64,000 nt of DNA, from positions 44,094 through 108,093 of the forward strand of contig CADEGF010000004.1 of the NCBI GenBank assembly GCA_902826815.1. Reading direction: 5' to 3'. The notes beneath the pieces are model-generated. The model was given only the letters and a program-made list of their open reading frames with translations, did no database searches and was not told where the DNA came from. Source of the DNA: an uncultured Mycobacteriaceae bacterium. GTDB lineage: Bacteria; Actinomycetota; Actinomycetes; Mycobacteriales; Mycobacteriaceae. Numbering within the stretch: the first letter of the stretch is position 1; every line of letters begins with the position of its first letter. Positions 11,516 to 15,960 of the stretch are shown here, in pieces. Made by a program: the position numbers and the translations under genes.

Positions 11516-11560
11516 TTGCATCGGATAGCCGGTCAAACTATAGTCTGGACAAGTGTCCAG
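11516..11560 (+). promoter_or_regulatory. promoter with overlapping TetR-type operator
   Basis: TTGCAT (11516-11521) and TATAGT (11539-11544) are separated by 17 bases, a good sigma-A-type promoter. The palindrome CTGGACAAGTGTCCAG (11545-11560) lies immediately after the -10 element, where transcription should begin. Its GGACA-N2-TGTCC core recurs at the start of the TetR gene at 15384-15397. This suits steric repression by that TetR protein. The predicted 5' leader to ATG 11635 is about 80 bases. Confidence 0.65.
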
Positions 11561-11634
11561 TGGCCTGTCGTCGAACTCCGACCGCAGGTCGTGAGGGTTA
11601 AGCGGGCTCCCCGCAGGTCCGGAGTGAACTGAGT

Positions 11635-12870
11635 ATGCGCGTTGCCTTGCTGTCTTACCGGAGCAAGACGCACTGCGGTGGACAAGGCGTCTATGTCCGC
11701 CATCTGAGCCGTGGTCTCGTCGAGTTGGGCCACGACGTAGAGGTGTTCTCCGGCCAGCCGTATCCGGAGGGGCTGGACCCGCGGGTACGCCTGACGAAGG
11801 TGCCCAGCCTCGATCTCTACCGTGAACCCGACCCGTTCCGCGTTCCGTGGCCAAATGAGATCAAGACCCGGATCGACCTGCTCGAGCTGTTGACGACGTG
11901 GACGGCCGGCTTCCCGGAGCCACGTACCTTCAGCCTGCGGGCCGCGCGGGTGCTGGCCGAGCGACTGGCCGACTTCGACGTCGTACATGACAACCAGTGC
12001 CTCGGTAGCGGCCTGCTGAAGATCGCCGACCTCGGCATGCCCGTGGTGGCGACGGTGCACCATCCGATCACCCGCGACCGCGTCCTCGACGTCGCCGCGG
12101 CGCGATGGTGGCGCAAGCCCCTGGTCCGCCGCTGGTACGGCTTCGCCGAGATGCAGAAGGACGTCGCGCGCCGGATCCCAGAACTGCTGACCGTGTCGTC
12201 GACCTCGGCCGCCGACATCGCCGAGGACTTCGCGGTGTCATCCGACCAGTTGCACGTCGTACCGCTCGGCGTGGACACCGGGCTGTTCAAGCCCGCCGAG
12301 AAGCGGGTACGCAACCGCGTCATCGCGATCGCGAGCGCCGACGTTCCGCTCAAGGGTGTCAGCCATCTGCTGCACGCGATCGCCCGGCTGCGGGTGGAGC
12401 GCGACCTCGAACTGCAGCTGGTAGCCAAGCTGGAGCCGAACGGCCCCACCGAGAAGCTGATCGCCGAGCTGGGCATCTCCGATATCGTGCACAGCTCCAG
12501 CGGGGTGTCGGACTCCGAACTCGCCGAGCTGCTCGCTTCCGCCGAAGTCGCCTGTATCCCATCCCTTTATGAAGGCTTTTCTCTGCCTGCCGTCGAAGCC
12601 ATGGCGAGCGGGACGCCGATCGTCGCGAGTAGGGCGGGGGCGCTGCCCGAGGTGGTCGGATCAGACGGCGAGTGCGCACGGCTGGTCACGCCAGCCGACG
12701 TCGACGAGCTGACGAAGGTGCTCGGCGAATTGCTCGACTCGCCACTGGAACTGCGGCGGCTCGGCGCGAACGGCAGGCAGCGCGCACTCGACGTGTTCAG
12801 CTGGGAATCCGTTGCCGCACAGACGGTCGCGGTGTACGAGACAGCCCGCGCGAGGGTCGGCCGATGCTGA
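11635..12870 (+). CDS. GT4 family glycosyltransferase
   Basis: A 411-residue GT-B fold glycosyltransferase of the GT4 type. The N-terminal Rossmann domain shows GGQGVYVRHLSRGLVELGH; the C-terminal donor-binding domain has ASADVPLKGVSHLLHA and the E-x7-E pattern EGFSLPAVEAMASG. It transfers a sugar from a nucleotide or lipid-linked donor to an unknown acceptor in the cytoplasm. ATG 11635 has GGAG 10 bases upstream. It is the first gene of a tight operon, sharing 7 bases (ATGCTGA) with the methyltransferase. Confidence 0.88.
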   Translation: MRVALLSYRSKTHCGGQGVYVRHLSRGLVELGHDVEVFSGQPYPEGLDPRVRLTKVPSLDLYREPDPFRVPWPNEIKTRIDLLELLTTWTAGFPEPRTFSLRAARVLAERLADFDVVHDNQCLGSGLLKIADLGMPVVATVHHPITRDRVLDVAAARWWRKPLVRRWYGFAEMQKDVARRIPELLTVSSTSAADIAEDFAVSSDQLHVVPLGVDTGLFKPAEKRVRNRVIAIASADVPLKGVSHLLHAIARLRVERDLELQLVAKLEPNGPTEKLIAELGISDIVHSSSGVSDSELAELLASAEVACIPSLYEGFSLPAVEAMASGTPIVASRAGALPEVVGSDGECARLVTPADVDELTKVLGELLDSPLELRRLGANGRQRALDVFSWESVAAQTVAVYETARARVGRC

Positions 12871-13595
12871 CCGTCGACTACGACCGGCTCGGAGTCGGTG
12901 CAGGCACGAAGGTGATCGACGTCGGCTGTGGCGCGGGCAGGCATTCGTTCGAGGCGTTCCGCCGAGGCGCGGACGTCGTCGCATTCGACCAGAACGCGTC
13001 CGACCTGAACGACGTCGACGAGATCCTGCAGGCGATGAAGGACCAGGGTGAGGTGCCTGCGTCGGCGACGGCGGAGGCGGTCAAGGGCGATGCGCTCGAC
13101 CTGCCTTATGGTGACGGCACTTTCGACTGCGTCATCGCCTCCGAGATCCTCGAGCACGTTCCAGAGGACGACCGGGCGATCTCCGAACTGGTTCGCGTGC
13201 TCAAGCCAGGCGGAACGCTCGCCATCACGGTGCCCAGGTGGTTGCCGGAACGAATCTGCTGGGTGCTGTCCGACTCCTACCACGCCAACGAGGGCGGCCA
13301 CATCAGGATCTACCGCGCCGACGAACTGCGCGACAAGGTGGCCGCGCACGGCCTTGCGCTGACCCATACTCATCACGCGCATGCGCTGCACTCGCCGTAC
13401 TGGTGGCTGAAATGTGCTGTCGGAACCGAGAAATCGGATAATCCTGCGGTCGTGGGCTATCACAAGCTTTTGGTGTGGGACATGGTCAGCCAGCCTTGGC
13501 TGACGCGGACGGCCGAGTCGCTGCTCAACCCGTTGATCGGCAAGAGCGTGGCGCTGTACTTCCGCAAGCCGGAGGTGTCGGTTGCTTCGGACTAA
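12864..13595 (+). CDS. class I SAM-dependent methyltransferase
   Basis: A 243-residue methyltransferase with the SAM-binding motif VIDVGCGAGRHSFEA, the acidic post-motif VAFDQN, and the motif II-III region FDCVIASEILEHVPEDD ... LKPGGTLAITVP. This is the Methyltransf_11/UbiE-like type often acting on lipid or small-molecule oxygens. ATG 12864 overlaps the glycosyltransferase stop by 7 bases, and the 3' end overlaps the next gene by 14 bases, so the three are translationally coupled. The substrate is unknown. Confidence 0.88.
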   Translation: MLTVDYDRLGVGAGTKVIDVGCGAGRHSFEAFRRGADVVAFDQNASDLNDVDEILQAMKDQGEVPASATAEAVKGDALDLPYGDGTFDCVIASEILEHVPEDDRAISELVRVLKPGGTLAITVPRWLPERICWVLSDSYHANEGGHIRIYRADELRDKVAAHGLALTHTHHAHALHSPYWWLKCAVGTEKSDNPAVVGYHKLLVWDMVSQPWLTRTAESLLNPLIGKSVALYFRKPEVSVASD

Positions 13596-14665: not shown

Positions 14666-15337
14666 CTACAGCTGTTCGCCGACCGTCCCGCAGACGCGCT
14701 CCAACACCCGCATCGATCCGGTGGCCGACACCTCACGGAAGGCGCCGGTCTGACGCGCGCGCTGATAGATGTGGAACGGCGCCTGGCCGCCGTCGGCGGG
14801 ATCGGGGAAGACGTCGTGGATCACCAGAGCGCCGCCGATGTCGACCCATCTCGCCCAGCCGTCGAAGTCGCGCTGCGCGGCGTCCTCGGTGTGCCCGCCG
14901 TCAATGAACAAGAACTGCAACGGCGTTCGCCAGCCGCGGGCGACCACGAAGGACTTGCCGACCACGGCGATCACATGCTCGTCGAGGTCCGCGGCGTCCA
15001 GTGCGCGGCGCAGCGACGGCAGGGTGTCGAATCGTCCGCTCGCGGGGTCGACCAGCGACGTGTCGTGGTACTCCCAGCCGGGCTGGTGCTCTTCGGAGCC
15101 ATGATGATGGTCGACGGTGTAGAGGACGCCGCCGCTCTGTTGCGCAGCGGCCCCGAGCATCAGCGTCGACTTGCCGCAGTAGGTGCCGATCTCGACACCG
15201 ATGCCGTCGCCGAGGTAGCGGATCGCAGTGTCGTAGAGGGTGCGGCCCTCGTCGGCGGGCATGAAGCCGGTGACCTGATCGGCGAGGGCGAAAAGCGTCG
15301 CGGCGGCCTGCGGGAGTGCGGTGTCGGTGTTGCTCAT
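14666..15337 (-). CDS. Methyltransf_24 family SAM-dependent methyltransferase
   Basis: A 223-residue class I methyltransferase: [18 protein letters not shown] is the SAM-binding loop, [20 protein letters not shown] follows, and [22 protein letters not shown] is the Methyltransf_24 hallmark, with DDxH-like FIDGGH metal- or substrate-facing residues. This type is common beside glycosyltransferases of polysaccharide and glycolipid loci. GGAGG precedes ATG 15337. It is divergent from the TetR gene, with only 53 bases between starts, and the TetR operator lies in that gap, so it is probably co-regulated with the glycosyltransferase operon. Confidence 0.85.
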
Positions 15338-15383
15338 CGCCTCCAACCTACCGTTGCTGGTGGGATGTGCTTGTAGTAGCGTC

Positions 15384-15397
15384 CGGACACGTGTCCG
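15384..15397. promoter_or_regulatory. TetR autoregulatory operator
   Basis: A perfect 14-base palindrome CGGACACGTGTCCG that includes the GTG start codon (15391) of the TetR gene. A -10-like TAGCGT at 15377-15382 sits 8 bases before GTG, with TTGCTG at 15354-15359, so the TetR transcript is probably leaderless and the operator covers +1. It shares the GGACA-N2-TGTCC core with 11545-11560. Because it lies between divergent genes it may control both. Confidence 0.6.
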
Positions 15398-15960
15398 AGC
15401 CGGTTCTCGAGTCGACAAGGCGCCGTCTGACCGCCAAGCAGGCCGACACCGTCGATCGCCTCGGCAGGGCCGCGGTCGACATCCTGACCAGGGACGGCTT
15501 TGCCGGCCTGACCGTGCGGCGCGTTGCCGCCGAGGCAGGCGTTGGCGCGGCGACCGCGTACACGTACTTCTCGTCGAAGGAGCATCTCGTCGCCGAGGTG
15601 TTCTGGCGCAAGCTGAGGGCGGCCCCGCCCGCGATGCACGCCTGCGACGACACCGCGGGCCGGGTGATCGACGTGCTGCGCCATATCGCACTGCTCGTCG
15701 CCGACGAACCCGAGTTCGCGGGCGCGGTCACCAGTGCGCTGCTCGGCAGGGATCCCGACGTCGAGGTGCTTCGGCTGCGCATCGGTCGCGATATTCACGA
15801 GCGGCTGCTCGCGGCGCTGGGGTCTGACCGCGATCCGGACGTGATCGAATCGCTCGAGCTCCTCTACGCGGGCGCGCTGGTGCGGGCCGGAATGGGATAC
15901 GGGTCCTACGCCGACATCGCCGACCGGTTGGAGAAGTCAGCGCGCCTGATGCTCAACTGA
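15391..15960 (+). CDS. TetR family repressor of the glycosyltransferase locus
   Basis: A 189-residue TetR regulator. The N-terminal HTH reads [33 protein letters not shown] (split by helices 2 and 3), followed by a typical ligand-binding helical domain. GTG 15391 ([12 protein letters not shown]) is chosen because it gives the normal length and lies at the predicted leaderless start. It is divergent from the Methyltransf_24 gene and overlaps by 24 bases, tail-to-tail, the next TetR gene. The shared palindromes at 11545 and 15384 make it the likely regulator of this five-gene locus. Confidence 0.85.

Follow-up and report, generated by a model that had tools for sequence, protein, structure and literature searches.

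What do the glycosyltransferase, methyltransferase and "toroid" genes that lie beside a TetR gene in an uncultured Mycobacteriaceae bacterium make, and what controls them? The locus occupies positions 11516 to 15960 of a 64-kb stretch of contig CADEGF010000004.1 (the window, by which we mean the whole stretch of DNA that was analysed). A first-pass annotation of this DNA had listed five genes (GT4, S-adenosylmethionine (SAM) methyltransferase, toroid, Methyltransf_24 and TetR) and had read them as a self-contained system under one TetR operator, for a product of which no description was known. The five genes, their overlaps and their orientations are as it gave them. The product is a different matter. 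We are confident of the following reading: the four enzyme genes belong to the published cluster for 3-O-methylmannose polysaccharide (MMP), the linked TetR protein (P1) is most likely the repressor of the manT operon and of its own gene, and a paralogue, P2, probably reads the manT operator in mycobacteria that lack P1.

Three of the four enzymes have near full-length matches among the solved structures of Mycobacterium hassiacum proteins: ManT matches 7qsg (E 3.7e-236), MmpH 7qsj (E 5e-209) and MeT1 6g7d (E 5.1e-120). 7QSG and 7QSJ are the ManT and MmpH structures of PMC9883506 (this and all other papers are cited here from parts of their text), which describes the four-gene MMP cluster with pMeT3 as a putative 3-O-methyltransferase, and which demonstrated the activities of the M. 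hassiacum ManT, MmpH and MeT1. The four catalytic residues of ManT (H142, K240, E313 and E321) do not vary across 11 aligned ManT sequences, this one included, and 11 of the 11 catalytic or binding residues checked in MmpH (D47, D50, E262, W315 and others) are retained. For pMeT3 there is no MMP structure to compare, and it was assigned by its position and its methyltransferase fold. With manT, pmeT3, mmpH and meT1 all found in one cluster, and with the four enzymes and the checked active-site residues alike those of M. hassiacum (MHAS_04402-04405) and M. smegmatis (MSMEG_6481-6484), sequence comparison identifies the genes as the MMP cluster, whose arrangement is described as very conserved among mycobacteria (PMC9883506).

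The enzyme activities at this locus are assigned by homology to the M. hassiacum enzymes, and on the same basis its product would be MMP. ManT would elongate an alpha-(1->4)-mannan, pMeT3 would probably methylate this mannan at the 3-O position, MmpH would cleave mature MMP to primers, and MeT1 would cap the reducing end. An M. smegmatis mmpH mutant made no MMP and grew more slowly at 15 °C (PMC9883506).

The earlier suggestion of a glycosylated, methylated and possibly terpenoid product from an undescribed pathway is, in our judgement, scarcely credible. It had the gene families right (GT4, two SAM methyltransferases and an alpha-toroid protein), but the near full-length matches and the retained active-site residues point instead to a described set of enzymes. 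The toroid protein matched 0 Pfam families, and therefore none of the terpene-cyclase or prenyltransferase-repeat kind, and its sole solved relative is MmpH; a terpene cyclase or prenyltransferase was ruled out on these two grounds. Its label is explained by the (alpha/alpha)6 barrel fold of MmpH (PMC9883506).

What, then, controls the cluster? The two palindromes reported by the first-pass annotation (Operators 1 and 2, Table 1) are present and, given their conservation in relatives, are not chance occurrences. The shared motif stood up to comparison, while the count of one operator did not: there are two, the second lying over the start codon of tetR. To assess conservation we surveyed 297 Mycobacterium genomes, of which 240 carry meT1. 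From these 240 we chose 60 genus loci and 20 P1-less loci, spanning a range of identities and mostly on long contigs rather than at random; 80 named genomes were also compared. The manT operator could be tested in 57 of the 60 genus loci (it fell outside the stretch in L049 and L075, and was cut in L054), where its 12-bp core was exact in 56 and had one mismatch in the other. Among the named genomes, 78 had an exact core and two had one mismatch.

This conservation is sharply confined to the site. The commonest base averages 99.6% within it, compared to 72% over the 60 bp on its upstream side, where the promoter lies, and 53% over 50 bp on its downstream side (58 sequences). The promoter is itself conserved on sequence comparison, with TTGCGT replacing TTGCAT at equal spacing as the -35 box in relatives. 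The core reads GGACACATGTCC in 77 of the 80 named genomes, so that GGACAAGTGTCC in the window is an unusual form.

The tetR gene and its operator are conserved in a similar way. tetR adjoins meT1 in 52 of the 60 genus loci and in 71 of the 80 named loci. Operator 2 begins 6 nt 5' of the tetR GTG in all 57 relatives (exact in 48, with one mismatch in 9), and it keeps this register in all 71 named loci with tetR (47, 23 and 1 with none, one and two mismatches, respectively). The second codon of tetR was TCC in 53 and TCT in four of the 57 relatives, and never TCG or AGC, which suggests that the DNA, not the serine, is constrained. The locus therefore shows the sequence pattern of an autoregulated TetR gene: a TetR helix-turn-helix protein whose own gene shares one palindrome with a target operon, conserved in relatives. 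The gene set with a common TetR-type operator at the operon start and at tetR thus holds across mycobacteria as first claimed, and a check of the relatives for operator loss or unrelated neighbours did not refute it.

In the mechanism that we propose, a P1 dimer would bind GGACAnnTGTCC just past the manT -10 box. As Operator 1 abuts this box, the bound dimer should block expression of manT-pmeT3-mmpH, and P1 would repress itself from the copy that covers its start codon. An alternative is that P1 is an activator, or that the sites serve some other DNA-binding protein, the palindrome being a promoter element and not a TetR operator. Because the site abuts the -10 box, promoter function could explain part of the conservation, and the direction of P1 control is something we infer. 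However, the palindrome recurs over start codons, in register in 57/57 cases for P1 and in 16/16 for P2, which is the usual mark of TetR autoregulation, and a position right past the -10 box suits repression. We regard this alternative as improbable.

Repression by P1 would be relieved by a ligand, perhaps an acyl-CoA or a sterol-derived thioester as for KstR, the repressor of cholesterol catabolism. This guess is based on KstR being, among solved structures, the nearest regulator of named function to match P1 nearly full length (for example 5cw8, with a profile match at E 2.5e-6). Of the NCBIfam models, that of KstR also scored highest for P1 (39.6 bits). P1 was rejected as KstR itself, since this score compares with an NF033703 cut-off of 280 and a true KstR of this genome, scoring 339 bits, is encoded on contig C5. 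The KstR operator consensus is unlike the predicted operator of P1.

Is P1 the only protein that could read these sites? At E<=1e-8, P1 matched one other TetR protein in its own genome, P2; P1 shares 44-49% identity with the P2 proteins. P2 is flanked by two P450 genes and a short-chain dehydrogenase/reductase gene on one side, and on the other by a divergent aldehyde dehydrogenase gene whose product scored 932 bits against the Rv0768 family cut-off of 775. These neighbours fit the Rv0762c-Rv0771 gene list, which includes cyp51, cyp123, Rv0767c and aldA (PMC10470581), and for this reason we take P2 to be the Rv0767c orthologue. The Rv0768-type aldehyde dehydrogenase and P450 genes expected beside such an orthologue were found at P2. 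P1 was rejected for this role because it lies at the MMP cluster and not in that neighbourhood. In a tree, P1, P2 and P3, a third paralogue, each formed one group (supports 95/86, 93/90 and 100/99, respectively), the deeper order being unsafe owing to long branches. P1 thus differs from the Rv0767c type both in its clade and in its location.

P1 and P2 nevertheless appear to share a site. A 10-residue recognition-helix stretch is identical between them, and A(T/S)AYTYF within the recognition helix is common to P1, P2 and P3. All 16 P2 loci examined carry the operator twice at the promoter of P2 itself (with R and Y accepted as end bases), and in all 16 one copy covers the P2 GTG at the offset seen for P1. 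In several P2 loci the manT core, GGACACATGTCC, is also found at the P2 start codon, and 9 of 10 P3 loci have a single site upstream. Further GGACAnnTGTCC sites in the genome of the window fell in six other contig stretches, for which open reading frames were listed; the pair on contig C71, at P2, was interpreted.

Published work on the Rv0767c / G155_05115 TetR (PMC6593523, PMC10312376), of which P2 is the orthologue by synteny and whose type shares operator core and recognition-helix stretch with P1, gives these sites a context. A palindrome called motif X closely resembles the Rv0767c site and lies close to the start codon of the gene for its own regulator; it was found at 14 operons, 12 of which were raised more than 3-fold by phytosterol, and no MMP genes are named in the available part of that text (PMC6593523). 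GAC and GTC are over-represented in Rv0767c sites (PMC10312376), and an Rv0767c motif is listed with E 1.2E-14 in PMC4482099.

The distribution of P1 bears on how the two regulators divide their work. P1, called at E below 1e-70 (G108 at 2.3e-48 and G187 at 3.6e-51 were scored as lacking it), is present in 155 and absent from 85 of the 240 meT1-positive genomes, and is present in 7 and absent from 50 of the 57 meT1-negative ones. These tallies were transcribed by hand, with unlisted meT1-negative genomes obtained by subtraction and P1 counted irrespective of linkage. One of the seven, G005, has manT in a fragmented assembly; no manT was found at E<=1e-60 in the other six.

Where MMP loci lack P1, the manT operator was exact in 8/8 and 20/20 cases, that is, in all 28 examined of the 85. 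As Operator 1 is kept in these loci, another protein must read it there, and P2 is probably the best candidate, judging from its recognition helix and sites. P2 would then act on the manT operator in mycobacteria without P1, and the MMP operon would be part of a wider regulon. The description of the locus as self-contained is consequently doubtful.

A stronger alternative is that P2, not P1, mainly regulates the manT operon even where P1 is present, with P1 acting chiefly on its own gene or on others. The invariant operator in P1-less loci, the manT core at the P2 start codon and the persistence of P1 with its site in five MMP-less genomes are all in its favour. In contrast, the linkage of tetR to meT1 in most loci, and the tendency of P1 and MMP genes to co-occur (relatedness not removed from the counts above), speak against it. 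We consider this alternative rather unlikely, though well ahead of an activating P1, and retain P1 as the probable repressor of the manT operon.

Several observations weigh against this assignment. The genomes compared are related, and the counts are inflated and not independent. In the whole genome (6.87 Mb) the 12-mer occurs at 10 places, versus 8 for the reversed pattern, which is near background; rarity was accordingly dropped as evidence. The sites convince because they are conserved in relatives, rarity by itself being weak: GGACANNTGTCC occurs twice in the window, and two copies arose in 0 of 100 shuffles, but with two mismatches allowed the window has 22 matches against a shuffle mean of 33. 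The five MMP-less genomes keep P1 together with its start-codon operator (four exact, one with one mismatch), and P1 may therefore have other targets. Upstream of meT1, P1-less loci had 0/20 exact sites and 1/20 with one mismatch. Operator 2 is thus lost along with tetR, which makes it probably the site of tetR itself and makes control of meT1 doubtful. The assignment of the site to P2 rests on the promoter of P2 itself, and motif X is published as a figure, the letters of which were not compared with GGACAnnTGTCC. Finally, the site is not general. Among 60 manT upstream regions from 13 other genera, drawn from 86 other-genus genomes with mmpH, GGACAnnTGTCC was found within one mismatch in 9, all from genus g28, so that the manT operator is mainly a Mycobacterium feature. 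In L222 and L223, from another genus, a P1-like tetR adjoins meT1, and the stretch has no site within one mismatch.

Elsewhere in these genera, a P1-like tetR (59-69% identical), with RGACAnnTGTCY-type sites nearby, adjoins the MMP genes or lies within about 4 kb of them in L228, L232, L234 and L240, which suggests a linked regulator older than the genus. Upstream of manT in L222-L281 there is a palindrome around GAACRTGTTCTA that we take to be KstR-like, present within one mismatch in 25/60 regions, while its reversed pattern is present in 2/60. Genus g28 also has GGACAnnTGTCC about 36 nt downstream of this palindrome (9/14 within one mismatch).

The data raise the broader possibility that MMP synthesis is a branch of an Rv0767c-type regulon, with GGACAnnTGTCC read by the paralogues P1, P2 and P3, P1 switching the MMP operon in many species and a trans-acting P2 doing so elsewhere. 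For this wider proposal we find the case evenly balanced. If true, the regulon would connect a polysaccharide that binds fatty acyl groups with aldehyde, P450 and sterol-side-chain metabolism.

How much of this was already described? The main text of PMC9883506 does not contain the whole words TetR, repressor, transcription or operator, and the linked tetR and the operators are what the present analysis adds to the published MMP cluster. A literature search found no paper joining methylmannose with a mycobacterial transcriptional regulator, and a search on MSMEG_6480, 6481, 6483, 6484 and 6485 found PMC9883506 alone. The TetR/operator layer of the cluster is thus apparently undescribed in the literature searched, outside which most subscription papers fall. 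The locus appears to be a known cluster with a new layer of control, tied to an Rv0767c-type regulon and reaching beyond the locus: the MMP enzymes are not new, while the strongly conserved switch looks new. A near-invariant operator with candidate regulators gives a direct handle on the cluster and would make the condition that induces MMP testable. Its tie to the Rv0767c-type regulon suggests that the signal comes from lipid or sterol metabolism.

Table 1. Features of the MMP locus in the 64-kb window (operators and promoter boxes are predictions).
Feature	Position	Strand	Basis or remark
-35 box TTGCAT of manT promoter	11516..11521	+	Read from sequence; predicted promoter
-10 box TATAGT of manT promoter	11539..11544	+	17 nt past -35 box; predicted
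Operator 1, CTGGACAAGTGTCCAG	11545..11560	.	Abuts -10 box of manT operon; predicted
manT, alpha-(1->4)-mannosyltransferase (GT4)	11635..12870	+	Match to 7qsg; catalytic residues invariant
pmeT3, putative 3-O-methyltransferase	12864..13595	+	Methyltransf_11; place in cluster
mmpH, MMP endomannosidase, (alpha/alpha)6 barrel ("toroid")	13582..14661	+	Match to 7qsj
meT1, MMP 1-O-methyltransferase (Methyltransf_24)	14666..15337	-	Match to 6g7d
Operator 2, CGGACACGTGTCCG	15384..15397	.	Covers tetR GTG, within meT1-tetR gap; predicted
tetR (P1), probable autoregulated repressor	15391..15960	+	GTG start; TetR_N domain

The first position noted for the locus, 11516, is the first base of the manT -35 box. 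manT and pmeT3 overlap by 7 nt (12864-12870), and pmeT3, for which an ATG start was picked by homology, overlaps mmpH by 14 nt (13582-13595). meT1 converges on mmpH across a 4-nt gap and is divergent from tetR, the end of Operator 2 lying 46 nt upstream of the meT1 start. The interval between mmpH and meT1 holds 2.1 to 4.0 kb of extra DNA in L045, L048, L054 and L075, and in L049 mmpH was not found within the 5.5 kb examined.

Beyond the cluster, on its 3' side, a second TetR gene with a weak FasR score, tetR2, is divergent from a cytochrome P450 gene (15937-16569 and 16641-18038). tetR2 lies near the MMP cluster in 63 of the 80 named loci. Together with a P450 gene it still adjoins P1 in the five MMP-less loci, L101-L105 (G148, G156, G205, G203 and G222), where neither manT nor meT1 was found. 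An isochorismatase-family (nicotinamidase-like) gene is divergent from P1 in L101. Upstream of the cluster, 7920-10958 encodes a large protein that combines a Ser/Thr kinase domain at the N terminus with kelch repeats at the C terminus.

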